Origin: Hexactinellida sp. DTS-2022
Lineage: Eukaryota; Porifera; Hexactinellida
Assembly (NCBI GenBank): GCA_028753945.1
Contig: JAPNXP010000009.1
Coordinates: forward strand, 1-64,000
Direction of reading: 5' to 3'
DNA: 64,000 nt
Below are positions 1 through 63,687 of this stretch, one piece after another (within the stretch, counting starts at the first letter, position 1; each line of letters starts with the position of its first letter). Position numbers and translations under genes: made by a program. Under the pieces are notes generated by a model that worked only from the letters and a program-made list of their open reading frames with translations, had not been told where the DNA came from and did not search any database.

Positions 1-3000
1 CTATTTTTTATGGTAAACAAGTTTTGCTGGGAACGAAGGAGAGTGAAGAATTCTGTCTATTTAGTTGTCTTGATCGGAAACATATGTAAAGGATGGCTAT
101 CCTATGTGATGTGTAGATGTATCTGTGTGAAAAGTATATCATCTTTTCAAAGCGACCAGGATGGTTTATTGTCAAAGATTCACCTTCCTAATCAACCTAA
201 TTAGCATTCTTAAAATCTATTTTTTATGGTAAACAAGTTTGCTGGGAACGAAGGAGAGTGAAAGAATTCTTCTATTTAATTGTCTTGATGGAATATATTG
301 TAAAGGATGGCTATCCTATGTGATGTGTTGGATGTCTGGTGAAAAGTATATCTCTTTTCAAAGCGACCAGGATGGTTATTGTCAAAGATTCACCTTCCTA
401 ATCAACCTAATTAGCATTCTTAAAATCTATTTTTTATGGTAAACAAGTTTGCTGGGAACGAAGGAGAGTGAAAGAATTCTTCTATTTAATTGTCTTGATG
501 GAATATATTGTAAAGGATGGCTATCCTATGTGATGTGTTGGATGTCTGGTGAAAAGTATATCTCTTTTCAAAGCGACCAGGATGGTTTATTGTCAAAGAT
601 TCACCTTCCTAATCAACCTAATTAGCATTCTTAAAATCTATTTTTTATGGTAAACAAGTTTGCTGGGAACGAAGGAGAGTGAAAGAATTCTTCTATTTAA
701 TTGTCTTGATGGAATATATTGTAAAGGATGGCTATCCTATGTGATGTGTTGGATGTCTGGTGAAAAGTATATCTCTTTTCAAAGCGACCAGGATGGTTTA
801 TTGTCAAAGATTCACCTTCCTAATCAACCTAATTAGCATTCTTAAAATCTATTTTTTATGGTAAACAAGTTTGCTGGGAACGAAGGAGAGTGAAAGAATT
901 CTTCTATTTAATTGTCTTGATGGAATATATTGTAAAGGATGGCTATCCTATGTGATGTGTTGGATGTCTGGTGAAAAGTATATCTCTTTTCAAAGCGACC
1001 AGGATGGTTTATTGTCAAAGATTCACCTTCCTAATCAACCTAATTAGCATTCTTAAAATCTATTTTTTATGGTAAACAAGTTTGCTGGGAACGAAGGAGA
1101 GTGAAAGAATTCTTCTATTTAATTGTCTTGATGGAATATATTGTAAAGGATGGCTATCCTATGTGATGTGTTGGATGTCTGGTGAAAAGTATATCTCTTT
1201 TCAAAGCGACCAGGATGGTTTATTGTCAAAGATTCACCTTCCTAATCAACCTAATTAGCATTCTTAAAATCTATTTTTTATGGTAAACAAGTTTGCTGGG
1301 AACGAAGGAGAGTGAAAGAATTCTTCTATTTAATTGTCTTGATGGAATATATTGTAAAGGATGGCTATCCTATGTGATGTGTTGGATGTCTGGTGAAAAG
1401 TATATCTCTTTTCAAAGCGACCAGGATGGTTTATTGTCAAAGATTCACCTTCCTAATCAACCTAATTAGCATTCTTAAAATCTATTTTTTATGGTAAACA
1501 AGTTTGCTGGGAACGAAGGAGAGTGAAAGAATTCTTCTATTTAATTGTCTTGATGGAATATATTGTAAAGGATGGCTATCCTATGTGATGTGTTGGATGT
1601 CTGGTGAAAAGTATATCTCTTTTCAAAGCGACCAGGATGGTTTATTGTCAAAGATTCACCTTCCTAATCAACCTAATTAGCATTCTTAAAATCTATTTTT
1701 TATGGTAAACAAGTTTGCTGGGAACGAAGGAGAGTGAAAGAATTCTTCTATTTAATTGTCTTGATGGAATATATTGTAAAGGATGGCTATCCTATGTGAT
1801 GTGTTGGATGTCTGGTGAAAAGTATATCTCTTTTCAAAGCGACCAGGATGGTTTATTGTCAAAGATTCACCTTCCTAATCAACCTAATTAGCATTCTTAA
1901 AATCTATTTTTTATGGTAAACAAGTTTGCTGGGAACGAAGGAGAGTGAAAGAATTCTTCTATTTAATTGTCTTGATGGAATATATTGTAAAGGATGGCTA
2001 TCCTATGTGATGTGTTGGATGTCTGGTGAAAAGTATATCTCTTTTCAAAGCGACCAGGATGGTTTATTGTCAAAGATTCACCTTCCTAATCAACCTAATT
2101 AGCATTCTTAAAATCTATTTTTTATGGTAAACAAGTTTGCTGGGAACGAAGGAGAGTGAAAGAATTCTTCTATTTAATTGTCTTGATGGAATATATTGTA
2201 AAGGATGGCTATCCTATGTGATGTGTTGGATGTCTGGTGAAAAGTATATCTCTTTTCAAAGCGACCAGGATGGTTTATTGTCAAAGATTCACCTTCCTAA
2301 TCAACCTAATTAGCATTCTTAAAATCTATTTTTTATGGTAAACAAGTTTGCTGGGAACGAAGGAGAGTGAAAGAATTCTTCTATTTAATTGTCTTGATGG
2401 AATATATTGTAAAGGATGGCTATCCTATGTGATGTGTTGGATGTCTGGTGAAAAGTATATCTCTTTTCAAAGCGACCAGGATGGTTTATTGTCAAAGATT
2501 CACCTTCCTAATCAACCTAATTAGCATTCTTAAAATCTATTTTTTATGGTAAACAAGTTTGCTGGGAACGAAGGAGAGTGAAAGAATTCTTCTATTTAAT
2601 TGTCTTGATGGAATATATTGTAAAGGATGGCTATCCTATGTGATGTGTTGGATGTCTGGTGAAAAGTATATCTCTTTTCAAAGCGACCAGGATGGTTTAT
2701 TGTCAAAGATTCACCTTCCTAATCAACCTAATTAGCATTCTTAAAATCTATTTTTTATGGTAAACAAGTTTGCTGGGAACGAAGGAGAGTGAAAGAATTC
2801 TTCTATTTAATTGTCTTGATGGAATATATTGTAAAGGATGGCTATCCTATGTGATGTGTTGGATGTCTGGTGAAAAGTATATCTCTTTTCAAAGCGACCA
2901 GGATGGTTTATTGTCAAAGATTCACCTTCCTAATCAACCTAATTAGCATTCTTAAAATCTATTTTTTATGGTAAACAAGTTTGCTGGGAACGAAGGAGAG

Positions 3001-6000
3001 TGAAAGAATTCTTCTATTTAATTGTCTTGATGGAATATATTGTAAAGGATGGCTATCCTATGTGATGTGTTGGATGTCTGGTGAAAAGTATATCTCTTTT
3101 CAAAGCGACCAGGATGGTTTATTGTCAAAGATTCACCTTCCTAATCAACCTAATTAGCATTCTTAAAATCTATTTTTTATGGTAAACAAGTTTGCTGGGA
3201 ACGAAGGAGAGTGAAAGAATTCTTCTATTTAATTGTCTTGATGGAATATATTGTAAAGGATGGCTATCCTATGTGATGTGTTGGATGTCTGGTGAAAAGT
3301 ATATCTCTTTTCAAAGCGACCAGGATGGTTTATTGTCAAAGATTCACCTTCCTAATCAACCTAATTAGCATTCTTAAAATCTATTTTTTATGGTAAACAA
3401 GTTTGCTGGGAACGAAGGAGAGTGAAAGAATTCTTCTATTTAATTGTCTTGATGGAATATATTGTAAAGGATGGCTATCCTATGTGATGTGTTGGATGTC
3501 TGGTGAAAAGTATATCTCTTTTCAAAGCGACCAGGATGGTTTATTGTCAAAGATTCACCTTCCTAATCAACCTAATTAGCATTCTTAAAATCTATTTTTT
3601 ATGGTAAACAAGTTTGCTGGGAACGAAGGAGAGTGAAAGAATTCTTCTATTTAATTGTCTTGATGGAATATATTGTAAAGGATGGCTATCCTATGTGATG
3701 TGTTGGATGTCTGGTGAAAAGTATATCTCTTTTCAAAGCGACCAGGATGGTTTATTGTCAAAGATTCACCTTCCTAATCAACCTAATTAGCATTCTTAAA
3801 ATCTATTTTTTATGGTAAACAAGTTTGCTGGGAACGAAGGAGAGTGAAAGAATTCTTCTATTTAATTGTCTTGATGGAATATATTGTAAAGGATGGCTAT
3901 CCTATGTGATGTGTTGGATGTCTGGTGAAAAGTATATCTCTTTTCAAAGCGACCAGGATGGTTTATTGTCAAAGATTCACCTTCCTAATCAACCTAATTA
4001 GCATTCTTAAAATCTATTTTTTATGGTAAACAAGTTTGCTGGGAACGAAGGAGAGTGAAAGAATTCTTCTATTTAATTGTCTTGATGGAATATATTGTAA
4101 AGGATGGCTATCCTATGTGATGTGTTGGATGTCTGGTGAAAAGTATATCTCTTTTCAAAGCGACCAGGATGGTTTATTGTCAAAGATTCACCTTCCTAAT
4201 CAACCTAATTAGCATTCTTAAAATCTATTTTTTATGGTAAACAAGTTTGCTGGGAACGAAGGAGAGTGAAAGAATTCTTCTATTTAATTGTCTTGATGGA
4301 ATATATTGTAAAGGATGGCTATCCTATGTGATGTGTTGGATGTCTGGTGAAAAGTATATCTCTTTTCAAAGCGACCAGGATGGTTTATTGTCAAAGATTC
4401 ACCTTCCTAATCAACCTAATTAGCATTCTTAAAATCTATTTTTTATGGTAAACAAGTTTGCTGGGAACGAAGGAGAGTGAAAGAATTCTTCTATTTAATT
4501 GTCTTGATGGAATATATTGTAAAGGATGGCTATCCTATGTGATGTGTTGGATGTCTGGTGAAAAGTATATCTCTTTTCAAAGCGACCAGGATGGTTTATT
4601 GTCAAAGATTCACCTTCCTAATCAACCTAATTAGCATTCTTAAAATCTATTTTTTATGGTAAACAAGTTTGCTGGGAACGAAGGAGAGTGAAAGAATTCT
4701 TCTATTTAATTGTCTTGATGGAATATATTGTAAAGGATGGCTATCCTATGTGATGTGTTGGATGTCTGGTGAAAAGTATATCTCTTTTCAAAGCGACCAG
4801 GATGGTTTATTGTCAAAGATTCACCTTCCTAATCAACCTAATTAGCATTCTTAAAATCTATTTTTTATGGTAAACAAGTTTGCTGGGAACGAAGGAGAGT
4901 GAAAGAATTCTTCTATTTAATTGTCTTGATGGAATATATTGTAAAGGATGGCTATCCTATGTGATGTGTTGGATGTCTGGTGAAAAGTATATCTCTTTTC
5001 AAAGCGACCAGGATGGTTTATTGTCAAAGATTCACCTTCCTAATCAACCTAATTAGCATTCTTAAAATCTATTTTTTATGGTAAACAAGTTTGCTGGGAA
5101 CGAAGGAGAGTGAAAGAATTCTTCTATTTAATTGTCTTGATGGAATATATTGTAAAGGATGGCTATCCTATGTGATGTGTTGGATGTCTGGTGAAAAGTA
5201 TATCTCTTTTCAAAGCGACCAGGATGGTTTATTGTCAAAGATTCACCTTCCTAATCAACCTAATTAGCATTCTTAAAATCTATTTTTTATGGTAAACAAG
5301 TTTGCTGGGAACGAAGGAGAGTGAAAGAATTCTTCTATTTAATTGTCTTGATGGAATATATTGTAAAGGATGGCTATCCTATGTGATGTGTTGGATGTCT
5401 GGTGAAAAGTATATCTCTTTTCAAAGCGACCAGGATGGTTTATTGTCAAAGATTCACCTTCCTAATCAACCTAATTAGCATTCTTAAAATCTATTTTTTA
5501 TGGTAAACAAGTTTGCTGGGAACGAAGGAGAGTGAAAGAATTCTTCTATTTAATTGTCTTGATGGAATATATTGTAAAGGATGGCTATCCTATGTGATGT
5601 GTTGGATGTCTGGTGAAAAGTATATCTCTTTTCAAAGCGACCAGGATGGTTTATTGTCAAAGATTCACCTTCCTAATCAACCTAATTAGCATTCTTAAAA
5701 TCTATTTTTTATGGTAAACAAGTTTGCTGGGAACGAAGGAGAGTGAAAGAATTCTTCTATTTAATTGTCTTGATGGAATATATTGTAAAGGATGGCTATC
5801 CTATGTGATGTGTTGGATGTCTGGTGAAAAGTATATCTCTTTTCAAAGCGACCAGGATGGTTTATTGTCAAAGATTCACCTTCCTAATCAACCTAATTAG
5901 CATTCTTAAAATCTATTTTTTATGGTAAACAAGTTTGCTGGGAACGAAGGAGAGTGAAAGAATTCTTCTATTTAATTGTCTTGATGGAATATATTGTAAA

Positions 6001-9000
6001 GGATGGCTATCCTATGTGATGTGTTGGATGTCTGGTGAAAAGTATATCTCTTTTCAAAGCGACCAGGATGGTTTATTGTCAAAGATTCACCTTCCTAATC
6101 AACCTAATTAGCATTCTTAAAATCTATTTTTTATGGTAAACAAGTTTGCTGGGAACGAAGGAGAGTGAAAGAATTCTTCTATTTAATTGTCTTGATGGAA
6201 TATATTGTAAAGGATGGCTATCCTATGTGATGTGTTGGATGTCTGGTGAAAAGTATATCTCTTTTCAAAGCGACCAGGATGGTTTATTGTCAAAGATTCA
6301 CCTTCCTAATCAACCTAATTAGCATTCTTAAAATCTATTTTTTATGGTAAACAAGTTTGCTGGGAACGAAGGAGAGTGAAAGAATTCTTCTATTTAATTG
6401 TCTTGATGGAATATATTGTAAAGGATGGCTATCCTATGTGATGTGTTGGATGTCTGGTGAAAAGTATATCTCTTTTCAAAGCGACCAGGATGGTTTATTG
6501 TCAAAGATTCACCTTCCTAATCAACCTAATTAGCATTCTTAAAATCTATTTTTTATGGTAAACAAGTTTGCTGGGAACGAAGGAGAGTGAAAGAATTCTT
6601 CTATTTAATTGTCTTGATGGAATATATTGTAAAGGATGGCTATCCTATGTGATGTGTTGGATGTCTGGTGAAAAGTATATCTCTTTTCAAAGCGACCAGG
6701 ATGGTTTATTGTCAAAGATTCACCTTCCTAATCAACCTAATTAGCATTCTTAAAATCTATTTTTTATGGTAAACAAGTTTGCTGGGAACGAAGGAGAGTG
6801 AAAGAATTCTTCTATTTAATTGTCTTGATGGAATATATTGTAAAGGATGGCTATCCTATGTGATGTGTTGGATGTCTGGTGAAAAGTATATCTCTTTTCA
6901 AAGCGACCAGGATGGTTTATTGTCAAAGATTCACCTTCCTAATCAACCTAATTAGCATTCTTAAAATCTATTTTTTATGGTAAACAAGTTTGCTGGGAAC
7001 GAAGGAGAGTGAAAGAATTCTTCTATTTAATTGTCTTGATGGAATATATTGTAAAGGATGGCTATCCTATGTGATGTGTTGGATGTCTGGTGAAAAGTAT
7101 ATCTCTTTTCAAAGCGACCAGGATGGTTTATTGTCAAAGATTCACCTTCCTAATCAACCTAATTAGCATTCTTAAAATCTATTTTTTATGGTAAACAAGT
7201 TTGCTGGGAACGAAGGAGAGTGAAAGAATTCTTCTATTTAATTGTCTTGATGGAATATATTGTAAAGGATGGCTATCCTATGTGATGTGTTGGATGTCTG
7301 GTGAAAAGTATATCTCTTTTCAAAGCGACCAGGATGGTTTATTGTCAAAGATTCACCTTCCTAATCAACCTAATTAGCATTCTTAAAATCTATTTTTTAT
7401 GGTAAACAAGTTTGCTGGGAACGAAGGAGAGTGAAAGAATTCTTCTATTTAATTGTCTTGATGGAATATATTGTAAAGGATGGCTATCCTATGTGATGTG
7501 TTGGATGTCTGGTGAAAAGTATATCTCTTTTCAAAGCGACCAGGATGGTTTATTGTCAAAGATTCACCTTCCTAATCAACCTAATTAGCATTCTTAAAAT
7601 CTATTTTTTATGGTAAACAAGTTTGCTGGGAACGAAGGAGAGTGAAAGAATTCTTCTATTTAATTGTCTTGATGGAATATATTGTAAAGGATGGCTATCC
7701 TATGTGATGTGTTGGATGTCTGGTGAAAAGTATATCTCTTTTCAAAGCGACCAGGATGGTTTATTGTCAAAGATTCACCTTCCTAATCAACCTAATTAGC
7801 ATTCTTAAAATCTATTTTTTATGGTAAACAAGTTTGCTGGGAACGAAGGAGAGTGAAAGAATTCTTCTATTTAATTGTCTTGATGGAATATATTGTAAAG
7901 GATGGCTATCCTATGTGATGTGTTGGATGTCTGGTGAAAAGTATATCTCTTTTCAAAGCGACCAGGATGGTTTATTGTCAAAGATTCACCTTCCTAATCA
8001 ACCTAATTAGCATTCTTAAAATCTATTTTTTATGGTAAACAAGTTTGCTGGGAACGAAGGAGAGTGAAAGAATTCTTCTATTTAATTGTCTTGATGGAAT
8101 ATATTGTAAAGGATGGCTATCCTATGTGATGTGTTGGATGTCTGGTGAAAAGTATATCTCTTTTCAAAGCGACCAGGATGGTTTATTGTCAAAGATTCAC
8201 CTTCCTAATCAACCTAATTAGCATTCTTAAAATCTATTTTTTATGGTAAACAAGTTTGCTGGGAACGAAGGAGAGTGAAAGAATTCTTCTATTTAATTGT
8301 CTTGATGGAATATATTGTAAAGGATGGCTATCCTATGTGATGTGTTGGATGTCTGGTGAAAAGTATATCTCTTTTCAAAGCGACCAGGATGGTTTATTGT
8401 CAAAGATTCACCTTCCTAATCAACCTAATTAGCATTCTTAAAATCTATTTTTTATGGTAAACAAGTTTGCTGGGAACGAAGGAGAGTGAAAGAATTCTTC
8501 TATTTAATTGTCTTGATGGAATATATTGTAAAGGATGGCTATCCTATGTGATGTGTTGGATGTCTGGTGAAAAGTATATCTCTTTTCAAAGCGACCAGGA
8601 TGGTTTATTGTCAAAGATTCACCTTCCTAATCAACCTAATTAGCATTCTTAAAATCTATTTTTTATGGTAAACAAGTTTGCTGGGAACGAAGGAGAGTGA
8701 AAGAATTCTTCTATTTAATTGTCTTGATGGAATATATTGTAAAGGATGGCTATCCTATGTGATGTGTTGGATGTCTGGTGAAAAGTATATCTCTTTTCAA
8801 AGCGACCAGGATGGTTTATTGTCAAAGATTCACCTTCCTAATCAACCTAATTAGCATTCTTAAAATCTATTTTTTATGGTAAACAAGTTTGCTGGGAACG
8901 AAGGAGAGTGAAAGAATTCTTCTATTTAATTGTCTTGATGGAATATATTGTAAAGGATGGCTATCCTATGTGATGTGTTGGATGTCTGGTGAAAAGTATA

Positions 9001-12000
9001 TCTCTTTTCAAAGCGACCAGGATGGTTTATTGTCAAAGATTCACCTTCCTAATCAACCTAATTAGCATTCTTAAAATCTATTTTTTATGGTAAACAAGTT
9101 TGCTGGGAACGAAGGAGAGTGAAAGAATTCTTCTATTTAATTGTCTTGATGGAATATATTGTAAAGGATGGCTATCCTATGTGATGTGTTGGATGTCTGG
9201 TGAAAAGTATATCTCTTTTCAAAGCGACCAGGATGGTTTATTGTCAAAGATTCACCTTCCTAATCAACCTAATTAGCATTCTTAAAATCTATTTTTTATG
9301 GTAAACAAGTTTGCTGGGAACGAAGGAGAGTGAAAGAATTCTTCTATTTAATTGTCTTGATGGAATATATTGTAAAGGATGGCTATCCTATGTGATGTGT
9401 TGGATGTCTGGTGAAAAGTATATCTCTTTTCAAAGCGACCAGGATGGTTTATTGTCAAAGATTCACCTTCCTAATCAACCTAATTAGCATTCTTAAAATC
9501 TATTTTTTATGGTAAACAAGTTTGCTGGGAACGAAGGAGAGTGAAAGAATTCTTCTATTTAATTGTCTTGATGGAATATATTGTAAAGGATGGCTATCCT
9601 ATGTGATGTGTTGGATGTCTGGTGAAAAGTATATCTCTTTTCAAAGCGACCAGGATGGTTTATTGTCAAAGATTCACCTTCCTAATCAACCTAATTAGCA
9701 TTCTTAAAATCTATTTTTTATGGTAAACAAGTTTGCTGGGAACGAAGGAGAGTGAAAGAATTCTTCTATTTAATTGTCTTGATGGAATATATTGTAAAGG
9801 ATGGCTATCCTATGTGATGTGTTGGATGTCTGGTGAAAAGTATATCTCTTTTCAAAGCGACCAGGATGGTTTATTGTCAAAGATTCACCTTCCTAATCAA
9901 CCTAATTAGCATTCTTAAAATCTATTTTTTATGGTAAACAAGTTTGCTGGGAACGAAGGAGAGTGAAAGAATTCTTCTATTTAATTGTCTTGATGGAATA
10001 TATTGTAAAGGATGGCTATCCTATGTGATGTGTTGGATGTCTGGTGAAAAGTATATCTCTTTTCAAAGCGACCAGGATGGTTTATTGTCAAAGATTCACC
10101 TTCCTAATCAACCTAATTAGCATTCTTAAAATCTATTTTTTATGGTAAACAAGTTTGCTGGGAACGAAGGAGAGTGAAAGAATTCTTCTATTTAATTGTC
10201 TTGATGGAATATATTGTAAAGGATGGCTATCCTATGTGATGTGTTGGATGTCTGGTGAAAAGTATATCTCTTTTCAAAGCGACCAGGATGGTTTATTGTC
10301 AAAGATTCACCTTCCTAATCAACCTAATTAGCATTCTTAAAATCTATTTTTTATGGTAAACAAGTTTGCTGGGAACGAAGGAGAGTGAAAGAATTCTTCT
10401 ATTTAATTGTCTTGATGGAATATATTGTAAAGGATGGCTATCCTATGTGATGTGTTGGATGTCTGGTGAAAAGTATATCTCTTTTCAAAGCGACCAGGAT
10501 GGTTTATTGTCAAAGATTCACCTTCCTAATCAACCTAATTAGCATTCTTAAAATCTATTTTTTATGGTAAACAAGTTTGCTGGGAACGAAGGAGAGTGAA
10601 AGAATTCTTCTATTTAATTGTCTTGATGGAATATATTGTAAAGGATGGCTATCCTATGTGATGTGTTGGATGTCTGGTGAAAAGTATATCTCTTTTCAAA
10701 GCGACCAGGATGGTTTATTGTCAAAGATTCACCTTCCTAATCAACCTAATTAGCATTCTTAAAATCTATTTTTTATGGTAAACAAGTTTGCTGGGAACGA
10801 AGGAGAGTGAAAGAATTCTTCTATTTAATTGTCTTGATGGAATATATTGTAAAGGATGGCTATCCTATGTGATGTGTTGGATGTCTGGTGAAAAGTATAT
10901 CTCTTTTCAAAGCGACCAGGATGGTTTATTGTCAAAGATTCACCTTCCTAATCAACCTAATTAGCATTCTTAAAATCTATTTTTTATGGTAAACAAGTTT
11001 GCTGGGAACGAAGGAGAGTGAAAGAATTCTTCTATTTAATTGTCTTGATGGAATATATTGTAAAGGATGGCTATCCTATGTGATGTGTTGGATGTCTGGT
11101 GAAAAGTATATCTCTTTTCAAAGCGACCAGGATGGTTTATTGTCAAAGATTCACCTTCCTAATCAACCTAATTAGCATTCTTAAAATCTATTTTTTATGG
11201 TAAACAAGTTTGCTGGGAACGAAGGAGAGTGAAAGAATTCTTCTATTTAATTGTCTTGATGGAATATATTGTAAAGGATGGCTATCCTATGTGATGTGTT
11301 GGATGTCTGGTGAAAAGTATATCTCTTTTCAAAGCGACCAGGATGGTTTATTGTCAAAGATTCACCTTCCTAATCAACCTAATTAGCATTCTTAAAATCT
11401 ATTTTTTATGGTAAACAAGTTTGCTGGGAACGAAGGAGAGTGAAAGAATTCTTCTATTTAATTGTCTTGATGGAATATATTGTAAAGGATGGCTATCCTA
11501 TGTGATGTGTTGGATGTCTGGTGAAAAGTATATCTCTTTTCAAAGCGACCAGGATGGTTTATTGTCAAAGATTCACCTTCCTAATCAACCTAATTAGCAT
11601 TCTTAAAATCTATTTTTTATGGTAAACAAGTTTGCTGGGAACGAAGGAGAGTGAAAGAATTCTTCTATTTAATTGTCTTGATGGAATATATTGTAAAGGA
11701 TGGCTATCCTATGTGATGTGTTGGATGTCTGGTGAAAAGTATATCTCTTTTCAAAGCGACCAGGATGGTTTATTGTCAAAGATTCACCTTCCTAATCAAC
11801 CTAATTAGCATTCTTAAAATCTATTTTTTATGGTAAACAAGTTTGCTGGGAACGAAGGAGAGTGAAAGAATTCTTCTATTTAATTGTCTTGATGGAATAT
11901 ATTGTAAAGGATGGCTATCCTATGTGATGTGTTGGATGTCTGGTGAAAAGTATATCTCTTTTCAAAGCGACCAGGATGGTTTATTGTCAAAGATTCACCT

Positions 12001-13880
12001 TCCTAATCAACCTAATTAGCATTCTTAAAATCTATTTTTTATGGTAAACAAGTTTGCTGGGAACGAAGGAGAGTGAAAGAATTCTTCTATTTAATTGTCT
12101 TGATGGAATATATTGTAAAGGATGGCTATCCTATGTGATGTGTTGGATGTCTGGTGAAAAGTATATCTCTTTTCAAAGCGACCAGGATGGTTTATTGTCA
12201 AAGATTCACCTTCCTAATCAACCTAATTAGCATTCTTAAAATCTATTTTTTATGGTAAACAAGTTTGCTGGGAACGAAGGAGAGTGAAAGAATTCTTCTA
12301 TTTAATTGTCTTGATGGAATATATTGTAAAGGATGGCTATCCTATGTGATGTGTTGGATGTCTGGTGAAAAGTATATCTCTTTTCAAAGCGACCAGGATG
12401 GTTTATTGTCAAAGATTCACCTTCCTAATCAACCTAATTAGCATTCTTAAAATCTATTTTTTATGGTAAACAAGTTTGCTGGGAACGAAGGAGAGTGAAA
12501 GAATTCTTCTATTTAATTGTCTTGATGGAATATATTGTAAAGGATGGCTATCCTATGTGATGTGTTGGATGTCTGGTGAAAAGTATATCTCTTTTCAAAG
12601 CGACCAGGATGGTTTATTGTCAAAGATTCACCTTCCTAATCAACCTAATTAGCATTCTTAAAATCTATTTTTTATGGTAAACAAGTTTGCTGGGAACGAA
12701 GGAGAGTGAAAGAATTCTTCTATTTAATTGTCTTGATGGAATATATTGTAAAGGATGGCTATCCTATGTGATGTGTTGGATGTCTGGTGAAAAGTATATC
12801 TCTTTTCAAAGCGACCAGGATGGTTTATTGTCAAAGATTCACCTTCCTAATCAACCTAATTAGCATTCTTAAAATCTATTTTTTATGGTAAACAAGTTTG
12901 CTGGGAACGAAGGAGAGTGAAAGAATTCTTCTATTTAATTGTCTTGATGGAATATATTGTAAAGGATGGCTATCCTATGTGATGTGTTGGATGTCTGGTG
13001 AAAAGTATATCTCTTTTCAAAGCGACCAGGATGGTTTATTGTCAAAGATTCACCTTCCTAATCAACCTAATTAGCATTCTTAAAATCTATTTTTTATGGT
13101 AAACAAGTTTGCTGGGAACGAAGGAGAGTGAAAGAATTCTTCTATTTAATTGTCTTGATGGAATATATTGTAAAGGATGGCTATCCTATGTGATGTGTTG
13201 GATGTCTGGTGAAAAGTATATCTCTTTTCAAAGCGACCAGGATGGTTTATTGTCAAAGATTCACCTTCCTAATCAACCTAATTAGCATTCTTAAAATCTA
13301 TTTTTTATGGTAAACAAGTTTGCTGGGAACGAAGGAGAGTGAAAGAATTCTTCTATTTAATTGTCTTGATGGAATATATTGTAAAGGATGGCTATCCTAT
13401 GTGATGTGTTGGATGTCTGGTGAAAAGTATATCTCTTTTCAAAGCGACCAGGATGGTTTATTGTCAAAGATTCACCTTCCTAATCAACCTAATTAGCATT
13501 CTTAAAATCTATTTTTTATGGTAAACAAGTTTGCTGGGAACGAAGGAGAGTGAAAGAATTCTTCTATTTAATTGTCTTGATGGAATATATTGTAAAGGAT
13601 GGCTATCCTATGTGATGTGTTGGATGTCTGGTGAAAAGTATATCTCTTTTCAAAGCGACCAGGATGGTTTATTGTCAAAGATTCACCTTCCTAATCAACC
13701 TAATTAGCATTCTTAAAATCTATTTTTTATGGTAAACAAGTTTGCTGGGAACGAAGGAGAGTGAAAGAATTCTTCTATTTAATTGTCTTGATGGAATATA
13801 TTGTAAAGGATGGCTATCCTATGTGATGTGTTGGGATGTCTGGTGTAAAGTATATCTCTTTTCAAAGCGACCTGGATGGA
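1..13880. repeat. 211-bp satellite array, about 66 tandem copies
   Basis: Head-to-tail copies of one 211-bp AT-rich unit fill this stretch. The landmark ctattttttatggtaaac recurs at 217, 427, 638, 849, 1060 and so on to 13720. From 427 to 13720 is exactly 63 x 211 bp, so there is no net indel in 13.3 kb, and the units I compared by eye look identical. The first copy (1-216) carries several small indels and substitutions, the second is one base short, and the last (from 13720) diverges after about 13835 and ends near 13880. Because 211 is not a multiple of three and stops occur in every unit, it is not coding. Each unit has one GAATTC. The array runs off the left edge, so its full length is unknown. 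It abuts CLASP exons that must have upstream partners, so it probably lies in a CLASP intron. Confidence 0.97.
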
Positions 13881-16712: not shown

Positions 16713-19170
16713 TCAGTTCCTGGGAGAGGAGGGGGAGAGGAGCAGCTCGGCGGCGTCCAGCTGTCGCAGCGCCTCCGAGACGCGCTCCAGTTCGCACCCG
16801 AACTTCCGGTGCGCCTCCGTCAGCAGCGAGAGCGGGTAGCGACTCTCGCTCCCCCCGGAGAGCCCCAGCGTCTCGGCGAGCTCCTGCTGCCGCCCGGGGG
16901 CCGGCTGTCCGCGCGGGGACGGCGGCTGCTGTCCCGCCTCCAGGTCCAGGGCGGCCAGGAGCGTCTCGCCCGCGGTGAGTCTCAGCTCGCAGGAGAAGGC
17001 CCCGGCGCTCTCGAAGAGCCTCTCCAGCTGGAAGATACTCCGCCGGTGTGTCTCCCCTAGCGTGGGCACGGCAGCGGCCTGCTTGCAGCTGCCGGTCACG
17101 CGGTATCCGAATTCAAGTTCCGCGAGGGCGAGAGAGCCGCGCTGCTCGCAGCAGAGAGAGAGCGGCTCCGACTCGCACAGGAACTGGGAGAGCCCCGGGG
17201 GCTCGCTCTCCAGGATCTTCGCGAACACGTCGTTGTAGTCGTTGTAGAGATACAGCGACAGGGCGGGGCGGGGCGAGGCGGCGCCGGTCAGGAAGCAGGC
17301 CAGTCTGAGTCGCTTGCAGACCGAGTAGGGCTCTCTATTAGGCCTGGCGCTGCGGGAGAGCCCCACCAGCTGCACCCACTGGAACACGAAGTGCGAGATC
17401 TCCAGGATGACGCAGTCGGGCTGCAGGTTAAACACAACCGGGCCAAGGATGGTGTTGTAGGAGAACATCTCCAGCTCCAAGTCTTCTTTGCAGACGTCGA
17501 TGCGAACGTAGTTGAGTCCGTTCGGCGAGAACACGTCTCCGTACGCGAATATTAGCTGCACGTGGTAGTCCTCCACATCTGGGAATACAAACATAAACAA
17601 CAACAACACAACAACAACAACAACAACAACAGCAAGTACCTAGGTTGAGACAGTGCGGCATGCGTATGCGGATGGGCTCCTGGAACTTGGCCCCCACGGG
17701 TCCGAACTGGAGCAGCGGGCTGCACACGTGCGCGGCGTATCCGTCCTCTCTCCGCTCCTCCAGGAACCCGGGGTCCGGCGAGACCTTGAAGTAGAACCCT
17801 TGGATCTGCCCCTCGGGAATCGCCCCCGCCGGCACCTCCACCTCGATGTGGCTCTCCCGGAAGCAGATGCGCCCCCCCAGACACCCAAACACCTTCTTAA
17901 CAATGGCCCCGAAGCAGACCACCTCGCTGTCGTCGCTAGCGGCCGGCGTCTCGACGGAGAAGGTCCCCAGGCCCTCCCGGGCGGACCCGGACACTCGGAT
18001 GCGACGCATCTTCCCGAGGGAGGGCAGTCTCTGTCGCAGCTCCAGGGCCAGGGCCAGGGGGGCCAGGGGGGGCGCGGGGCGCGGGCTCTTCGGGCGGAAC
18101 TTGGGAGGGACGGGCGGCGGACACGGGTCGTAGGACTCATCGAATGACTTAGATTTCTGAGAGAGAACAGTTAGGCAATGCAGTCAAATGTATAGCGAGC
18201 TAACCTTAAAATCCATTTGCTCGTGTCCGTTGCCAGGCTTCTGCACAGTGGCGTACTCGGGGGCGGACAGTTCGTCCATTGAGTAGAACCTCGTCGGGGC
18301 GGGCGACGGGATAACCCCCTTCCCAGTTGAGAGAATTAATTCCTTCAGTTTCGAGAAGCTGCCTCCCCTGTCGCTCCACTGTACGTCCAGCGAGTCTGTC
18401 CCCTGATAGCTCCCGCTAGCTACCCCCCCTGTCTCCTCTGTGATAGGCTCAGTGGGGGCGGGGGGGGGCTGGCGGCGCTGCAGGACCGTGTAGTGGTTAG
18501 AGCGGATGAGGGAGGCCCTGAGAGGTAACATAACACCTTAGCTAACAAACAAACAAAGCGGTGCCTACCTGAACTCCATTTCCGCTATCCTGGGCGCCTG
18601 TCCCTCCCCTGAGTCGGGAGAGTTGCCCCTGTCCTCATCCTGGTTACGGGAGGGGAGGCTAGGCACGCTGCTCACGGCTAGCGTCCGGCTTCCCGCATTC
18701 ACGTACACCTGCATGAGGAGGCTGCTGGGCATTAGGGGCTTGGGCGCGCTCTTCTGCGGATACACCACGTCCTCGCCGATCCCGAGGATCCGCTTTATCT
18801 GCGTGACCCAATCGAACATGATCTCCAGCTGCCCCGCGCTGAAGAAGTAGGTCCGGCCGGGCATAATGAGGTCGAATATGTTTGCGTACTTCTTAGTCTC
18901 GAGTCCGGCCTCCAGTCGCTGGGTCTGCTCCAGGTGTATGACCCCCAGAGGGACCGCGGCCCGAAAGCCCTCGTAGTACTCGAGAGACGCGTCCGCGCGG
19001 AGGACGAAGTAGCGGGTCTTCCAGCGCTTGAGGATGCTCTTGTTGAGCGGCGGCGACTTGACGAGGTACCCGCTCATGAGGATCTCCGGGAAGGGTTTCT
19101 GGTGGCACTCGGAGCAATGCACCAGGCCGCTGTGACTACACTTGTTAGCCATTCTGATATTGGGTTTCAT
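16713..19170 (-). CDS. PH (GAB-like) - ZU5 - UPA - death domain cytosolic adaptor
   Basis: Four exons (19170-18569, 18517-18205, 18156-17640, 17578-16713) with introns of only 51, 48 and 61 bp join into a 765-residue protein. Residues about 32-133 form a PH domain (GYLVKSPPLNKS then KRWKTRYFVLR) closest to the GAB/DOS docking proteins. It is preceded by a small Cys/His-rich stretch (CSHSG, HCSECH). Residues about 150-380 are disordered, with Tyr motifs (YTVL, YSMD, YATV) and a PPPVPPKFRP proline motif suited to SH2 and SH3 partners. Residues about 380-490 are a ZU5 domain (VVCFGAIVKK, VEVPAGAIPEGQ), 500-650 a UPA domain (CVILEISHFVFQW, KRLRLACFL), and about 675-755 resemble the UNC5 death domain. 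There is no signal peptide or membrane segment. I infer a cytosolic PI-lipid-binding scaffold. The upstream in-frame extension to 19194 begins with TTG, so the ATG at 19170 is the start; it sits 63 bp from a TATA box. Confidence 0.85.
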
Positions 19171-19761: not shown

Positions 19762-22700
19762 CTATTGCTTCTCAGAAAGCTTATTGGTCAATTCGGTTCG
19801 CAGGGTGTTCAGCTCAGCTCGCAGTTTGGCGCTCTCCTCCTAAGAAATGTTAGCCATTCAATAGCGCCTGCAATAATACTCATAGGCATATGGCAATAAT
19901 ACTGAATATAGGCACAGGATTATACTCACCTCCAGTTTGGTGTCGAACTTGTTTATCGCGTTCTCCACGTTTTCTGCGGATTTCTTGGCCATGCCCCTGG
20001 CCTCATCGATAAGGTACTCCATGTCGTTAAGCCCGTGTCCCTGCTTCTTTATCACAGTCTCCATCTCTTCCATTTTCTCCTAAAACGTCAGATTAATATA
20101 CCTACCATTAGCATAGCATAGCATAGCATAGCATAGCATATAGCATAGCATAGCATAGCATATAGCATAGGATAGCATAGCATAGCATATAGCATAGCAT
20201 AGCATAGCATAGCATAGCATAGCACATAGCATAGCACATAGCATAGCATAGCATAGCATAGTACATAGCATAGCATAGCATGGTGGCTACTCACCAGAGG
20301 AGACTCGGGGGGGATGTCTGACACGGACTGCCCCTGTCCGGACTGCCCCCTCAGCTGTTCCAGGTCCCGGCTCTGCTCCTCCAGCAGCCGCAGCGCCGAG
20401 TCCACAGCCTGCTGCAGACGGGAGTTATCTGCCAACACGCGCACCAGCTCCCCAGCCTGAGACTAGAGTGTGAGTTATGAGTTATAATATAGAGCAGTTA
20501 TAAGGAGGTATAATACAGAGCAGTTATTGCAATAGTAGATAACAGTTTATATCGAATGCAAATAAATAACAGTTATAATATAGCAGTTATAAGGAGGTAT
20601 AATACAGAGCAGTTATTGCAATAGTTAATCCATAGTAGATAACTGTGCAGTTAATATGTATCGAATGCAAGAACTGCTTACTATAGTAGCGCAATATAAG
20701 TAAACTAAACTGCAACAAATCAAAAGTGTACGTACAATAAATGACGTCATAGGAAGTGTAATATACAGTGTGAGTCTTAAGCCACACACAAGGTAGCATA
20801 ATTAACTTAAAAACGATATATCAACCTAATGGCCGTGTGACAAGTCATAACTAACTTTATTTGCGACCTATACAATAAATCATGAATATAGCAACTAAAT
20901 TCTAACAGCTATTACAGGGAAGACAAAATAATTCTGATTAGCAATCAAATATACTACGTATTTAAAATAATAAATAATTAAATTTGACTATTTACAGAAT
21001 AGATGTAAAGTGAAACGAAAAGAAGAGTTAAATCGAGAAAATTCTATTCAAACTAGTGTCAATAGAAATAGAAAATAGAGCGTTTAGTTAGATAATAAGA
21101 ATTTCATTAATGTTCTAGATTAACAAAGTTGTGAGTCCCAAGTTAAGTGAAATAAGTATTTACAAACGAGTCTATTTATAGAATAAAAAAGATGTATAAA
21201 TAGTAGTAAATATTTGAAAAAATAATAATAACATATTGCAAACAACAAAAATATGAATTCTTATTTTCCGAAATCAGAAGACGTTAAAGTAGAACAAAAG
21301 CTAATAGCTTGCAGGAGAATACTAACGGACGATTTCATGCTTAGACTCCCGTACTGCCAAGACCTGCTAGACCTCGTGGATAAGCACAAGGTATCCTTTA
21401 GAGTGAACCAAGCAGAGCTGACTGCCATCCTTGAGAGGAGCGGATTCTCGCCGGCAGAGCAGGCCTACATCCGGCGGATGAGACACCAGGGAAGGAACAA
21501 TATGGCCGCTAAGCGCCTACGCGACAAGAAGAGGGAAATGGAATGTGGCGAAGAGCTGCATTTGGAGCAGCTGCGAGCGGAGAGAGATCGGCTCGAGAGA
21601 GAAAAGAGAGAATTGACAAAAGAAATAGAATCTTATAGAAGCTTTATAGATTGCTAATGCATGTTATCACTACTGTATTGTATTGCATAGGCTATTCACT
21701 TAAGCGCTGTCATCACTAGCAACAATTTACTGTATATTTATCGGCACAAATAAAACTATTTTCTATACTTTTCAATGTTTACAATTTGGTGGCAAACATT
21801 AGATTATTTGTAAGAATCATTGCCTAGATGCTCATAATCCTATTTTGAGCAAAATAGAACAGTTACACTCCAGTGATCAACTAATGTGTTTTATCATGAC
21901 AATGTAATTATTATTGTACCGGCGCTTATTCGGGGAAATACGGTAATTATTTATAACATCAAACAAAAGTTCAAGAGTAAGCAAACCGTACAGCATTCTT
22001 GTGGTGTCAGGGGTTATTTACTGTTGTTGTTGTTGTTTACATTCCCCGTAAATATACAGTTATATTATAGTATAAACTGTATAAACAGAATATTAGGTAA
22101 TTTACAGTTAATCTGTTCTAAAATTAGGAACGAATTAGCGCAAATAATCCAAATCTATTTTTAGAAAGAGGAGCACAAAATTACCAAATAATACAGCAAT
22201 TACTAGCGCGTAATAACGTAACGAGGCACCTGTCAGATAACATTCCAATTGCAACCCCAGTAACTATGTACGCAGGCTTAGATGTTTATCAATTAAATCG
22301 AAAGTCTAATAGAAGAAATCTTTAATGCAATTTATATAAATAATTAATCTATAAAATGTAGAAATAATGTAGTGAATCCCGGTATAAGTAATAACGAAAT
22401 GCTTGGGACCTGTAAATCCCTTAGTTATATCCGGATACTCATTATAACGGGAGTTCTCTGTATTTCATAGGAATAAACTATAATGGCATAATTTCGAGAA
22501 ATATTTATTTCAGACAAAAAAGAATTTGCATTATTCTATACCAACGCTCCTTAGAAGTTTAAACAAATCCTATAAGAGTCCACCGGCAGAAAAGTGATTT
22601 TATACAAACAACACAATTTAACCCTGCATGCGTACAAAAATTATATTTAAAACTTACAGAAAGTTACAGTGTATCAATGTGTGACCAATAATTCCCTCAC

Positions 22701-39900: not shown

Positions 39901-41005
39901 AGGCATGCTATAACTGTATTAACATGTGATAGGAGGCATGGTATATAACTATTAACTTGTATGTAGGGGGCATGCTATAACTACTATTGTCTATAGGAGG
40001 CATGGTATATAACTATTAACTTGTATGTAGGGGGCATGATATACTATTATATGTGTAGGAGGCATGCTATAACTGTATTAACATGTGATAGGAGGCATGG
40101 TATATAACTATTAACTTGTATGTAGGGGGCATGCTATAACTACTATTGTCTATAGGAGGCATGGTATATAACTATTAACTTGTATGTAGGGGGCATGATA
40201 TACTATTATATGTGTAGGAGGCATGCTATAACTGTATTAACATGTGATAGGAGGCATGGTATATAACTATTAACTTGTATGTAGGGGGCATGTTATAACT
40301 ACTATTGTCTATAGGAGGCATGGTATAACTATAAACTTGTGTATTAGGAGGCATGTTATAACTATTAACTTGTATGTAGGGGGCATGTTATAACTACTAT
40401 TGTCTATAGGAGGCATGGTATAACTATAAACTTGTGTATTAGGAGGCATGTTATAACTATTAACTTGTCTATTAGGAGGCATGGTTGGCTTCAAGCAGGC
40501 GGAGATCGACTTCCCGGTGCGGGTCAACAAGATCCCTCGCGGCATTCCGCACCAAACCTTCTTCTCCAAGTCTCTGTTCGGAATCGTGGTTGGGGGCGGG
40601 CTGCCCTTCGGGTGCATATTCCTGCAAATGTTCTTCATTCTCAACTCCATTTGGGGGCACGCCACGTACTACATGTTCGGGTTTCTGTTCCTTGTGTTGC
40701 TACTCTTGCTGATCATATGCAGTCTTAACACCATTCTGCTATCCTACTTCCATCTCTGCTCAGAGAACTACAGCTGGCAGTGGCGCGCGTTCGCTAACTC
40801 CGCGGCCATAGGCCTATACGTGCTGGGGTACTCATTCTACTTCTACCTGACCAAGCTATCCATAGAGGGCATAACCAACCTGGTGCTGTTCTTCGGATAC
40901 ACGGCCGTGTTCACTATGCTGGTCGGGCTGTTTACGGGGTCCGTGGGGTACCTGTCGACACTGGTGTTCGTCAGGAAGATCTACTCCCTGATAAAGATAG
41001 ACTGA
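33982..41005 (+). CDS. TM9SF2: transmembrane 9 superfamily member 2-type protein (nonaspanin)
   Basis: Eight exons join in frame to 643 residues: 33982-34230, 34498-34759, 35103-35218, 35261-35359, 35962-36124, 38242-38526, 38969-39199 and 40479-41005. It starts with a signal peptide and the family's [12 protein letters not shown] signature. A lumenal domain follows, ending in the ASRWDYLL-type segment, and then nine membrane helices. Family blocks seen include [45 protein letters not shown] and [14 protein letters not shown]; these match TM9SF2 better than TM9SF4 as I remember them. The C terminus [10 protein letters not shown] carries the KxD Golgi-retention type ending. TM9SF proteins act in the endosome/Golgi and help sort membrane proteins with glycine-rich helices. 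Introns 5 and 7 are expanded by tandem arrays that copy the splice acceptor. The acceptor of the last exon can be read at 40478 or three bases earlier, 40475 (one extra Gly). Confidence 0.93.
35568..35857. mobile_element. hAT-type MITE with 8-bp target duplication in TM9SF2 intron 4
   Basis: Begins CATGGGCGTCAGAAG and ends CTTCCGACGCCCCTG, flanked by the direct repeat GTACTGTA (35560-35567 and 35858-35865). The interior is rich in GCCCCCC tracts and has no transposase ORF. Confidence 0.8.
36158..36210 (+). repeat. duplicated 3' end of TM9SF2 exon 5 with its splice donor
   Basis: Repeats the last 50 bases of exon 5 and the donor (ATCAG|GTAC) with one silent-type change (CTC to CTA). It is preceded by an acceptor-like ccatacag. 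Splicing from exon 5 into it would shift frame and hit TAA, so it is more likely a non-functional tandem duplicate. Confidence 0.85.
36257..38241 (+). repeat. 92-bp tandem array (about 20 copies) built from TM9SF2 exon 5 tail and exon 6 head
   Basis: Each unit carries an acceptor (tatctctag) plus the first 50 or so bases of exon 6 (encoding [16 protein letters not shown]), then a degenerate copy of the exon 5 tail (atagccgcattcctattgac, where the donor GT is lost). Unit-internal stops (CTATAG or TATTGA) follow the exon-like part. The real exon 6 starts at 38242. A 148-bp hAT-like element interrupts the array at 36533. Confidence 0.93.
36533..36680. mobile_element. 148-bp hAT-like MITE with 5-bp target duplication, inside the TM9SF2 array
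   Basis: Begins CAGGGGCGTAGCCAGG and ends CCTGCCTACGCCCCTG; flanked by TCTGG direct repeats (36528-36532 and 36681-36685). A nearly identical copy lies inverted at 43052-43199. Confidence 0.85.
38651..38732. mobile_element. MITE family D fragment in TM9SF2 intron 6
   Basis: Contains CCTCTAATAGCAACTTCGCC, TTTCATGCGAAATGCGAG and ends AATTCCACTGTA. It is the reverse of the copies at 19503 and 60698. A family E fragment follows at 38833-38876. Confidence 0.55.
39370..40478 (+). repeat. tandem array copying the splice acceptor of TM9SF2 exon 8
   Basis: Units of roughly 30 and 60 bp alternate tataggaggcatggtatata and tgtagggggcatgctataac types. The last unit is the real acceptor with exon start (ctattaggag|GCATGGTTGGC). 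So each unit contains an AG acceptor and the first six to eight exon bases; dozens of decoy acceptors precede the true one. Confidence 0.9.
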
Positions 41006-41336
41006 GCTATTGTATTGAACTAATTAGGAACCTGTTCGTGTTTCTAATAACAGCTAATTGCTGATTATAATTAAACTATTTCTTGTAGTCAACTTGTCCT
41101 ACATACTTATGTATTATGCTAGCTTATGATGCCTCATTAGTCAATCTTAATTTAACAATCTTAATAAATAGACAAGTTACCATATACTCGAATAATCGCC
41201 CCCCTAAAACAACAAAACTAATAAAAGTATAAAATATTAAAATTAATAAAAACAACAAAATTTCAAAAATTTCATAAAAACAACAATCCCCTCGAGTAAG
41301 TACACTAACAGAATACAACAGCTGTGCGCCTAACCT
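41006..41336. other. spacer between convergent TM9SF2 and MFS genes
   Basis: AT-rich 3' regions. Bases about 41180-41295 hold a repeat (ATACTCGAATAATCGCCCCC then CTAAAACAACAAAA) that recurs inverted near 43420-43485 and in related form at 54088-54333, so a dispersed element is present. Confidence 0.5.
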
Positions 41337-42782
41337 TCACCCCTCACTGCGGGGGAGCTCCAGTCTCCCTGGGTACCTCACCGCGGCTATAAGCAGCCCT
41401 CCCAGCTGTATACAGCCCAGCCACCAGACCAGCGAGCTGTCCAGTGGCCAGCCGGCCCCCAGAGCTACGCTCCACGCGAACACATTAGCGGAGAGCGCCG
41501 GCCCCGCCAGCCTAGCGAGCGAGGCGCCCGACTGCGCGCACCCGTTAACCGCGGCCCGCGCCTCCCGCCCGCTGGCATTAGCCACCCCCAGGGTGTAGCA
41601 GGTGAAGAGCGCCATTCTCAGCAGGAAGAAGGGGATTAGGAGGGACAGCAGTAGGAGCCACACGGACAGAGGGACCGCGGTCGCCCCCAGGCCGACAGAA
41701 CAGGTGTCATTAGCCGCGAGGGGGAGGGCCCTAAGGACCAGGGGGGCCCGCGTCCAGAGGGCCAGCCCGACCAGCACTGCCGCGTAGCCGCATATAAGCA
41801 GCCGCAGCGCCTTCCTAATGCCCAGACTGGCTATGAGCCGCGGGACTATAAACAGGGCCCACGGGACCTGCGCGAGGGAGGCAGAGAAGGTGATGAGACC
41901 GAGGGAACTCTCGTTCATACAGAATCCCCCGAAGCGGGGCGGGGTCACCATGACCAGGGGAATGAGCTCCTCGCACTGCATGCTTATCAGCGCAAACAGG
42001 TTGTAGTTGAGCACAGCTGCCAGCACCAATCTGTCGGTCAGCAGGCGACGAGTGGTTCCCATAAACCGACTGCAACTGAGAGGAATAAGTTTATATGCAC
42101 AGCCCCTCTCCCTTGTATCCTCGCTCTCAGGTTCTAGCAGTCCATAGTCCGACGTGTGTACCCTGGGCAGGGTCTCCTTAATGAGCACAGCTGCGACCGC
42201 TATCGCCGCGACCGCAAACAGGAAGCACACCAGACTCGGGAGCAGGAATGGGAACCGACGCAGGAGCTCCAAATCCAGGAGAGGGTACTTATCTGCGGGT
42301 TTGCTTAACAGAGCGCTTATAGTCGGGCCCAGCATTCTGCCTAGTCCGTTAGCCAGTGCCATAATAGAGAGTCCCTTGGCCAAGTCCTTACCCTCACAAA
42401 TATCCGCTATGAACGTTTTAATTATTGTGTCCAGTCCATTGAACAGTCCCCATAGGAACCGCAGGAAGAGTGCCATGGCATAGGATGAGCTCATTCCGAA
42501 CATGACACCCGTAACGCTGAATAGGAATGTGCTCAGAATCATGGCTCGCTTTCTCCCATAGGTGTCCGCTACCTTTACCCAAACAAAGTTTCCGAAGAAG
42601 TTCCCCAGGAAGTATATTCCTGCCAGGTACCCCTGTCTGTAGCCGAGCTGTGTGACCGCCAGGCGCGGGAAGAACAGCTGCGTCATCGCGGGTAGGATCG
42701 GGAACACGTAGAGCAGTCCGAACTTCCCGACCACCTGCACCAGGCAGGCTGCGAACAGCTGGACCGAGGTGTCTGATCTCAT
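41337..42782 (-). CDS. major facilitator superfamily transporter, ZIF-like (DHA1-type)
   Basis: An intronless 481-residue ORF read from the ATG at 42782; the in-frame extension to 42818 begins with GTG. It shows twelve hydrophobic helices in two halves of six. The loop between helices 2 and 3 carries the MFS motif A (VKVADTYGRKRAM). Blocks such as LSKPADKYP and RRFPFLLPSL after helix 5-6 match the plant/fungal ZINC INDUCED FACILITATOR-like group. Those proteins are proton-coupled exporters of small chelators or ions in the plasma or vacuolar membrane; the substrate here cannot be told. The central loop is acidic (EPESEDTRERG). Codon use is GC-rich like its neighbours, so there is no sign of recent transfer, though this family is uncommon in well-studied animals. 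An upstream exon supplying a longer N terminus cannot be excluded. Confidence 0.82.
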   Translation of the reverse strand: MRSDTSVQLFAACLVQVVGKFGLLYVFPILPAMTQLFFPRLAVTQLGYRQGYLAGIYFLGNFFGNFVWVKVADTYGRKRAMILSTFLFSVTGVMFGMSSSYAMALFLRFLWGLFNGLDTIIKTFIADICEGKDLAKGLSIMALANGLGRMLGPTISALLSKPADKYPLLDLELLRRFPFLLPSLVCFLFAVAAIAVAAVLIKETLPRVHTSDYGLLEPESEDTRERGCAYKLIPLSCSRFMGTTRRLLTDRLVLAAVLNYNLFALISMQCEELIPLVMVTPPRFGGFCMNESSLGLITFSASLAQVPWALFIVPRLIASLGIRKALRLLICGYAAVLVGLALWTRAPLVLRALPLAANDTCSVGLGATAVPLSVWLLLLSLLIPFFLLRMALFTCYTLGVANASGREARAAVNGCAQSGASLARLAGPALSANVFAWSVALGAGWPLDSSLVWWLGCIQLGGLLIAAVRYPGRLELPRSEG

Positions 42783-42870
42783 GCAGCTGTGTTGCTCCAA
42801 TTGTATATAGGTATTCACACTGTATGCTGTACCCTGCTGATGGTACTTAGTCAGAACGGATTTATGTTGT

Positions 42871-62473: not shown

Positions 62474-63235
62474 TCACAGCATAAACAGGACCACTGCCAA
62501 CAGCAATAAAATCATGACATCGATAGCTAGTGTGTGTCCCGAGCTGGAATAGAGGAGCGGGTTATAATAGCTACAGCTGTCCGTCTTGCCCGAGGGACAG
62601 CTGATCACCGAAAAGTTGGCACTCAGACACAGGTGCGAACTCGTTATATATCTGTGGTTGTCAATAGTGGAGCATTGGAATGTGACCGTATTGCTAATTC
62701 CAAACTTAGTTGTGAAGGTAGATTTAAGTTCTGACAGAGAAGTGGAGGTGCCCGGGTAAATATCGTTTTCCTGTAGAATCTTACCGAAATTGAATCTGCC
62801 GTATAGCTCTAGGGTTCTGGAGAAATAGGCCGATTGGGAGGGGAACATATCCGGGTCCCCCTGGACCGCACAGGTCCCGTGTTTGCTCCATTCGTAGCTC
62901 CAGAAGGACGCGTCGGTCGCGGACTCTCTGTAATTCGGCCAAACGGCGGTCAGCTCGCTCCTCAGGTCGCTGCTTAGGGAGTCCGAACTGAATGGGTCCC
63001 CGTAGCAAAAAGAGGGTTTTGAGGTCTGTTGGTTAAGTGTGGGCCATAGACCATGGATTGTCCAGGTGTTGGTGACCTTATCGCGGTCGCAACCGTTCCC
63101 TATACTGGTGCAGTACCCAGGGGGCCAAGTCAGGGCGAGGACAACATAATCGTAGGTAACGTTTTCAGCTGATGTCAACAACAACAATAACAACGAGTTA
63201 AGTAACAATAACACAAGTTGCATAGAAAGAGTCAT
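62474..63235 (-). CDS. RNASET2: RNase T2 family endoribonuclease with C-terminal hydrophobic tail
   Basis: An intronless 253-residue ORF. Residues 1-24 are a signal peptide (Leu-rich, ending near SAEN). The mature part shows both T2 catalytic motifs, CAS I as WTIHGLWP (about residue 58) and CAS II as FWSYEWSKHGTC (about 110-121), with catalytic His in each. Cys residues match the family disulphides. RNase T2 cleaves single-stranded RNA to 2',3'-cyclic phosphates in the lysosome or outside the cell. Unusually, the last 20 residues are a hydrophobic stretch ending at the stop (MILLLLAVVLFML) after a small-residue SSSGH segment, which looks like a GPI-attachment signal or a C-terminal membrane anchor. 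A TATA box lies 51 bp upstream. N-glycosylation sites (NVTY, NFSV) are present. Confidence 0.93.
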   Translation of the reverse strand: MTLSMQLVLLLLNSLLLLLLTSAENVTYDYVVLALTWPPGYCTSIGNGCDRDKVTNTWTIHGLWPTLNQQTSKPSFCYGDPFSSDSLSSDLRSELTAVWPNYRESATDASFWSYEWSKHGTCAVQGDPDMFPSQSAYFSRTLELYGRFNFGKILQENDIYPGTSTSLSELKSTFTTKFGISNTVTFQCSTIDNHRYITSSHLCLSANFSVISCPSGKTDSCSYYNPLLYSSSGHTLAIDVMILLLLAVVLFML

Positions 63236-63279
63236 TAATAGTATTTTGGTATTGTACTGTAGAAGCGAAATAAGAACGC

Positions 63280-63286
63280 TTATATA
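63280..63286 (-). promoter_or_regulatory. TATA box of RNase T2
   Basis: Minus-strand TATATAA (context CTATATAAGC), 51 bp upstream of the ATG at 63235. Confidence 0.55.
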
Positions 63287-63687
63287 GTCTAGAATACCTA
63301 TATAATATCCATACAGCGTTTCGCTATAATGAGAAGCCTAAGTTAATAGAGTCTCTCTTAGCTGGGAAGACAGAAGGCAGTAATTATATTATTTGTGTCG
63401 CAAATGAAAACAATTAACCATCGTTTTAACTCAGTTCCTTTTCGAGAGATATTTACAGTTAAATAATCGCATTTCCAATTAAATAGTATTTCGATAGCTT
63501 CCGTTAAGAATATTTTGTTGTAGAAGACCATCCTTTTTAAGTTTTTATATAACAAATCGGTCAAAAAGCGTACATAGGGAGGGGTGCTTCTAACTTTTGG
63601 CGCTACGTAAGGTTTGAATGGCATTCTAAGATAAACCGGTGTGAAAATGAAATAGCCAAGTTAGGAACTTGCAGGATTACCATCTTC

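Follow-up and report, generated by a model that had tools for sequence, protein, structure and literature searches.

ZU5–UPA–death modules have been studied within receptors, ankyrins and PIDD, and soluble proteins that pair ZU5 with a death domain are already known, among them UNC5CL and PIDD1, the latter of which carries an LRR. In ZO-1 the ZU5 domain belongs to a PDZ–SH3–GUK context with neither a PH domain nor UPA–death. A K-x(n)-K-x-R pattern marks PH domains that bind 3-phosphoinositides. To our knowledge, MACC1, SH3BP4, UNC5CL and PIDD1 carry no PH domain and GAB proteins carry no ZU5, and we know of no PH–ZU5 protein. One account presents MACC1 and SH3BP4 as soluble ZU5 proteins, MACC1 having an SH3 and two death domains (PMC11585957), and another describes a preference of Gab1/2 for PI(3,4,5)P3 and a contribution of the Gab1 PH domain to plasma-membrane recruitment (PMC2747914). 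No PH–ZU5 protein was found in the literature at the level of titles and abstract openings of the matches listed; eukaryote protein databases may already catalogue it.

The window, by which we mean the whole 64 000-nucleotide stretch of glass-sponge DNA that was analysed, encodes a protein of this kind on its minus strand (19170–16713). As the first-pass annotation had proposed, four exons close in frame as one protein, and the joined open frame of 2298 bases comprises 765 codons and a stop. Exon 1 (18569–19170; residues 1–200) contains the start codon, a Cys/His N-terminal motif and the PH domain, exon 2 (18205–18517; residues 201–305) a Pro/Ser-rich linker with Tyr210 and Tyr289, exon 3 (17640–18156; residues 306–477) the proline motif PPPVPPKFRP and the bulk of the ZU5 domain, and exon 4 (16713–17578) residues 478–765 and the stop. 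All three introns are GT-AG (intron 1, 18518–18568, 51 bp; intron 2, 18157–18204, 48 bp; intron 3, 17579–17639, 61 bp) and the last interrupts the ZU5 match. The coding signature is uniform across the four exons, with a GC3 in the predicted frame of 0.83, 0.75, 0.87 and 0.88 for exons 1–4, respectively, set in introns with a total GC of 0.36–0.44 and flanks of 0.34 and 0.31; the other frames of the exons contain between one and eight stops each. When one junction was varied per run, within 60 bases and with introns of 35–150 bp allowed, junctions 1, 2 and 3 admitted 2, 8 and 27 frame-preserving splices, respectively, including the chosen one. By openness, junction 1 is thus well fixed and junction 3, which adjoins a GTT repeat, poorly fixed; the latter is fixed by homology, since the ZU5 match (residues 392–486) spans the 477/478 boundary. 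A 19-residue Kyte–Doolittle scan of the joined protein reaches a maximum mean of 1.55, at residue 533, and finds no transmembrane-like segment, so the earlier description of the product as soluble holds. We conclude that the gene is real and encodes one soluble protein in which a PH domain precedes ZU5.

An improbable alternative is that two genes have been read as one, namely a PH-only exon 1 and a ZU5 gene starting at one of two in-frame methionines (Met281 or Met355), possibly in combination with a trans-spliced leader. Exon 1 read unspliced meets a stop codon at the donor, the paralogues on contig C8 described below are PH-only frames of 184 codons, and a trans-spliced leader of ∼37 bp is reported for the glass sponge A. 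vastus in one account (PMC10282587). Against this, the 51 and 48 bp gaps have GT-AG boundaries and preserve the frame, the coding signature runs throughout exons 2 and 3, and such gaps would leave little room for one mRNA to end and the next to begin. Introns of ∼50 bp are no glass-sponge hallmark as such, because those of O. minuta average 341 bp; A. vastus is described as having short introns (PMC10282587).

The gene lies near a chromosome end, 2.8 kb inward of a 211 bp satellite that occupies positions 1–13879 of the window (65.8 copies, 99%). The matches listed place further copies of this repeat close to the ends of contigs C16, C11 and C13, as well as in arrays within the interior of C18 (∼216 and 315–321 kb); it is probably a subtelomeric satellite. 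We consider it highly improbable that the gene is degenerate or non-expressed within a subtelomeric, GC-shifted segment: its position just inside a satellite also found towards the ends of other contigs would suit such a fate, as would the result that a genome search at E values of up to 1 found no second copy of exons 2–4, but 765 open codons, a strong third-position signature and clean splice sites argue against it. Upstream of the gene is a TAGCA-type repeat (20109–20281), and the adjoining minus-strand frames look coiled-coil-like by eye. Elsewhere in the window (40457–42869 and 62477–63337) the neighbours are ordinary: an EMP70 gene end, an MFS transporter and an RNase T2. Rfam gave no match within the window.

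The PH domain (18787–19080, minus strand; residues 31–128) scores 47 bits in the joined protein against a Pfam cut-off of 25.1 (E = 3.9 × 10−12), while a second, related PH model matches under its own cut-off. Residues 38–53 carry the K-x(n)-K-x-R basic pattern, and TAPP1, pleckstrin and DAPP1 are among the matches of a PDB search with this domain. Ahead of it is the motif HSGLVHCSECH (19102–19134, minus strand; residues 13–23), which by eye may resemble a metal knuckle. The general form HxxLVHCxECH is common to the window gene and to two paralogous PH-only frames, in which it reads HGDLVHCTECH, located in inverted order on contig C8 (1827671–1828120 and 1829625–1830071) of this genome of 112 398 167 bases in 18 contigs. 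Each of these frames has 184 codons from stop to stop and contains no ZU5. They are 51–52% identical to the window protein over residues 12–159. Compared with each other, they share 159 of 184 residues, 152 of these within the first 158; the GC content of the matched DNA is 0.44 in the C8 pair versus 0.60 in exon 1.

The N-terminal half had been likened to GAB proteins, a view that the pairwise scores partly support. For comparison, we used a sequence that we take to be the GAB1 PH domain; the window domain is 39% identical to it. BLAST of the window PH domain against four subjects gave 160 bits for the C8 pair, 67 for a gene on contig C14, 61 for the presumed GAB1 sequence and 45 for TAPP1. 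A genome search with the presumed GAB1 sequence returned 12 matches, headed by the C14 gene (C14:5030552; E = 1.4 × 10−12) and followed by the C8 pair (E = 8.1 × 10−10 and 2.2 × 10−9) and the window gene (E = 2.2 × 10−9). In an 11-row tree, the window PH domain and the two C8 paralogues form one group (support 98/98), with GAB1, C14, TAPP1 and others placed without resolution. The window PH domain thus appears GAB-like by pairwise score, a relation that the tree does not settle. The better GAB candidate is the C14 frame, which encodes a PH protein of 326 codons and, by eye, has Tyr motifs close to its end.

In the linker, the Tyr motifs lend no support to a docking function. Its motifs were counted over 263 residues and set against shuffled linkers. 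YxxM and YxxP are both absent, and the fraction of shuffles as rich as the linker is 0.134 for YxN and 0.337 for Yxx[VIL]; the Tyr motifs, which had been taken as evidence of docking, are therefore about as frequent as expected by chance. The proline motif that was noted at the same time is present, beginning at residue 318, but the enrichment of three SH3-type Pro patterns is borderline (shuffle fractions of 0.048–0.058) and PxxxR is at chance (0.386).

The ZU5 domain (residues 392–486) is encoded in two parts on the minus strand, 17640–17898 in exon 3 (residues 392–477) and 17553–17578 in exon 4 (residues 478–486). It scores 59.8 bits in the joined protein against a Pfam cut-off of 21 (E = 3.3 × 10−16), so that both of the domains now placed in this protein lie far above their thresholds. 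In a PDB search the top ZU5 match is ZO-1 (2kxr and 2kxs; E = 6.1 × 10−12), and UNC5B (3g5b) matches residues 388–486 across intron 3 (E = 3.1 × 10−9). A six-frame exon-wise search of the genome gave at least one ZU5 match, the window gene, a lower bound in that domains split by introns can stay hidden in such a search. With UNC5B as the query, the window gene is the sole genome match at E values of up to 1.

Beyond ZU5, the protein had been assigned an UNC5-type tail. The ZU5 part of that assignment stands, resembling ZO-1 and UNC5B, whereas UPA and the death domain were not recovered by the Pfam HMMs that found PH and ZU5. The joined protein and exon 4 gave no UPA or Death match at E values of up to 5, nor did three sub-pieces at up to 10, in searches where HMMER filters remove most matches above E ≃ 0.1. 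UPA had no match in the whole genome, in a search in which no positive control matched either. NCBIfam, where the ZU5 exon was entered in the wrong frame, gave no match. The regions concerned are a possible divergent UPA (16929–17552, minus strand; approximately residues 487–694) and a possible degenerate death-like tail (16716–16928, minus strand; approximately residues 695–765), neither with a Pfam match.

Comparison of these regions with UNC5B gave results that depend on the test, with shuffle p-values ranging from 0.007 to chance for the UPA part and from 0.002 to 0.08 for the tail. Local alignment to UNC5B (3g5b) was equalled by 155 of 2000 shuffles for residues 487–765, by 70 for the UPA part (residues 487–640), by 154 for residues 641–765 and, against the UNC5B death domain, by 12 for residues 696–765; the linker control was equalled by 808. 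A one-sequence HMM of the UNC5B UPA scored as high on 136 of 20 000 shuffles of residues 487–765. In semi-global alignment, the UPA part was at chance with BLOSUM62 over three cuts (723, 436 and 371 of 1000) and reached 38–61 of 1000 with two BLOSUM45 schemes. The tail (residues 695–765) gave 2, 2 and 14 of 1000 under three scoring schemes, with a boundary at residue 695 that was chosen after an alignment had been seen, and the linker and PH controls gave 190–762 of 1000. For residues 641–765, a UNC5B plus MyD88 profile was matched by 70 of 20 000 shuffles and a six-row Death profile by 138 of 20 000, the reversed sequence scoring nearly as high in the latter case (1.2 versus 1.7 bits). When UNC5B was combined with three ankyrins in one profile, the result was at chance (2831 of 20 000) in the second version; in the first version, which had a misaligned cut, the query was not among the matches.

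Structure-based comparisons add a weak pattern. The predicted model of exon 4 shows strands followed by helices at a pLDDT of 37.7, and residues 640–765 modelled alone reach 50.0; no relatives of exon 4 were found for the structure-prediction alignment. VIA-align of the exon 4 model listed 50 matches with no ZU5, UPA or death title among them, which is uninformative either way. A PDB search with exon 4 alone returned a single chance match (E = 1.6), and one with ZU5 plus the following region returned a second UNC5B stretch at 1.0 bit. It is rather unlikely that the C-terminal part is an unrelated, lineage-specific β/helical region behind a PH–linker–ZU5 protein whose ZU5 acts alone as in ZO-1. 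The missing UPA and Death HMM matches and the chance-level UNC5B–ankyrin profile point that way, as does ZO-1 being the best PDB match of the ZU5 domain; the UNC5B matches that continue collinearly after ZU5, albeit with test-dependent p-values, and the strand-then-helix order of the weak model point the other way. On balance, we lean towards a divergent UPA–death region in residues 487–765, a weakly supported reading that depends on domain order, the pattern of the low-confidence model and comparisons with one or a few sequences whose p-values shift with the test.

Our interpretation, in which we have moderate confidence, is that the single gene encodes a cytosolic adaptor belonging to the wide class of ZU5 proteins (UNC5, ZO-1, PIDD and ankyrin) and carrying a phosphoinositide-type PH domain in front. 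The PH domain would most likely bring the protein to plasma membrane carrying PI3K lipids, where ZU5, with the apparent β-rich and helical parts, may act as a protein–protein module that recruits partners, much as the UNC5 tail does beneath its receptor, here in a protein without a transmembrane receptor. Families from which partners might be drawn are present in the genome, where the six-frame exon-wise search gave 62 SH2 and 64 caspase-fold (PF00656) matches; Death gave four matches at E values of up to 10 (on C1, C5, C7 and C13), none of them in the window gene. Eight caspase-fold matches are packed into 14 kb (C6:322813–336041). In a 570-codon frame (L002:46–1755), a C-terminal Death domain (E = 4.5 × 10−11) is the sole Pfam match at E values of up to 0.1. 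A caspase part was suspected in the death-domain gene on C1; Pfam found none. The same six-frame search gave 16 homeobox matches and no Wnt match, no positive control having matched for the latter. This gene content fits that of the glass sponges O. minuta, reported to have 20 homeodomain proteins and to lack Wnt (PMC10280926), and A. vastus, for which the source reports no Wnt (PMC10282587).

More tentatively, as a reading that is less likely than not, the lineage's only ZU5–UPA–death module may stand behind a GAB-type PH domain rather than in a receptor, so that PI3K lipids and not netrin would place it at the membrane, with the PH-only paralogues, encoded on another chromosome, competing naturally for the same lipids. 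If true, lipids alone can position such a module in an early animal lineage, which bears on whether UNC5-type signalling started as a cytosolic adaptor. The locus offers a concrete test case: it is one gene, with no second copy detected, and SH2, Death and caspase-fold matches, the last of them numerous, occur in the same genome.

Set beside the known systems, the protein shares with the UNC5 receptors (UNC5B, 3g5b) a clearly related ZU5 domain and a downstream region that is collinear but weak. It differs from them in having no Pfam ectodomain family (Ig/TSP) and no transmembrane-like segment, in the PH domain in front, and in that its UPA and Death were not found by HMM. MACC1, SH3BP4, UNC5CL and PIDD1 are alike in having ZU5 without a receptor ectodomain and death-type domains at the end. 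ZO-1 (2kxr and 2kxs) supplies the ZU5 closest to that of the window protein in the PDB. With GAB/DOS the protein has in common an N-terminal PH domain of similar sequence, by comparison with the presumed GAB1 sequence, followed by a Pro-rich, Tyr-bearing region; it differs in lacking YxxM and in Tyr motifs that occur at chance. The join of PH and ZU5 in one protein looks real as a new, unusual domain combination.
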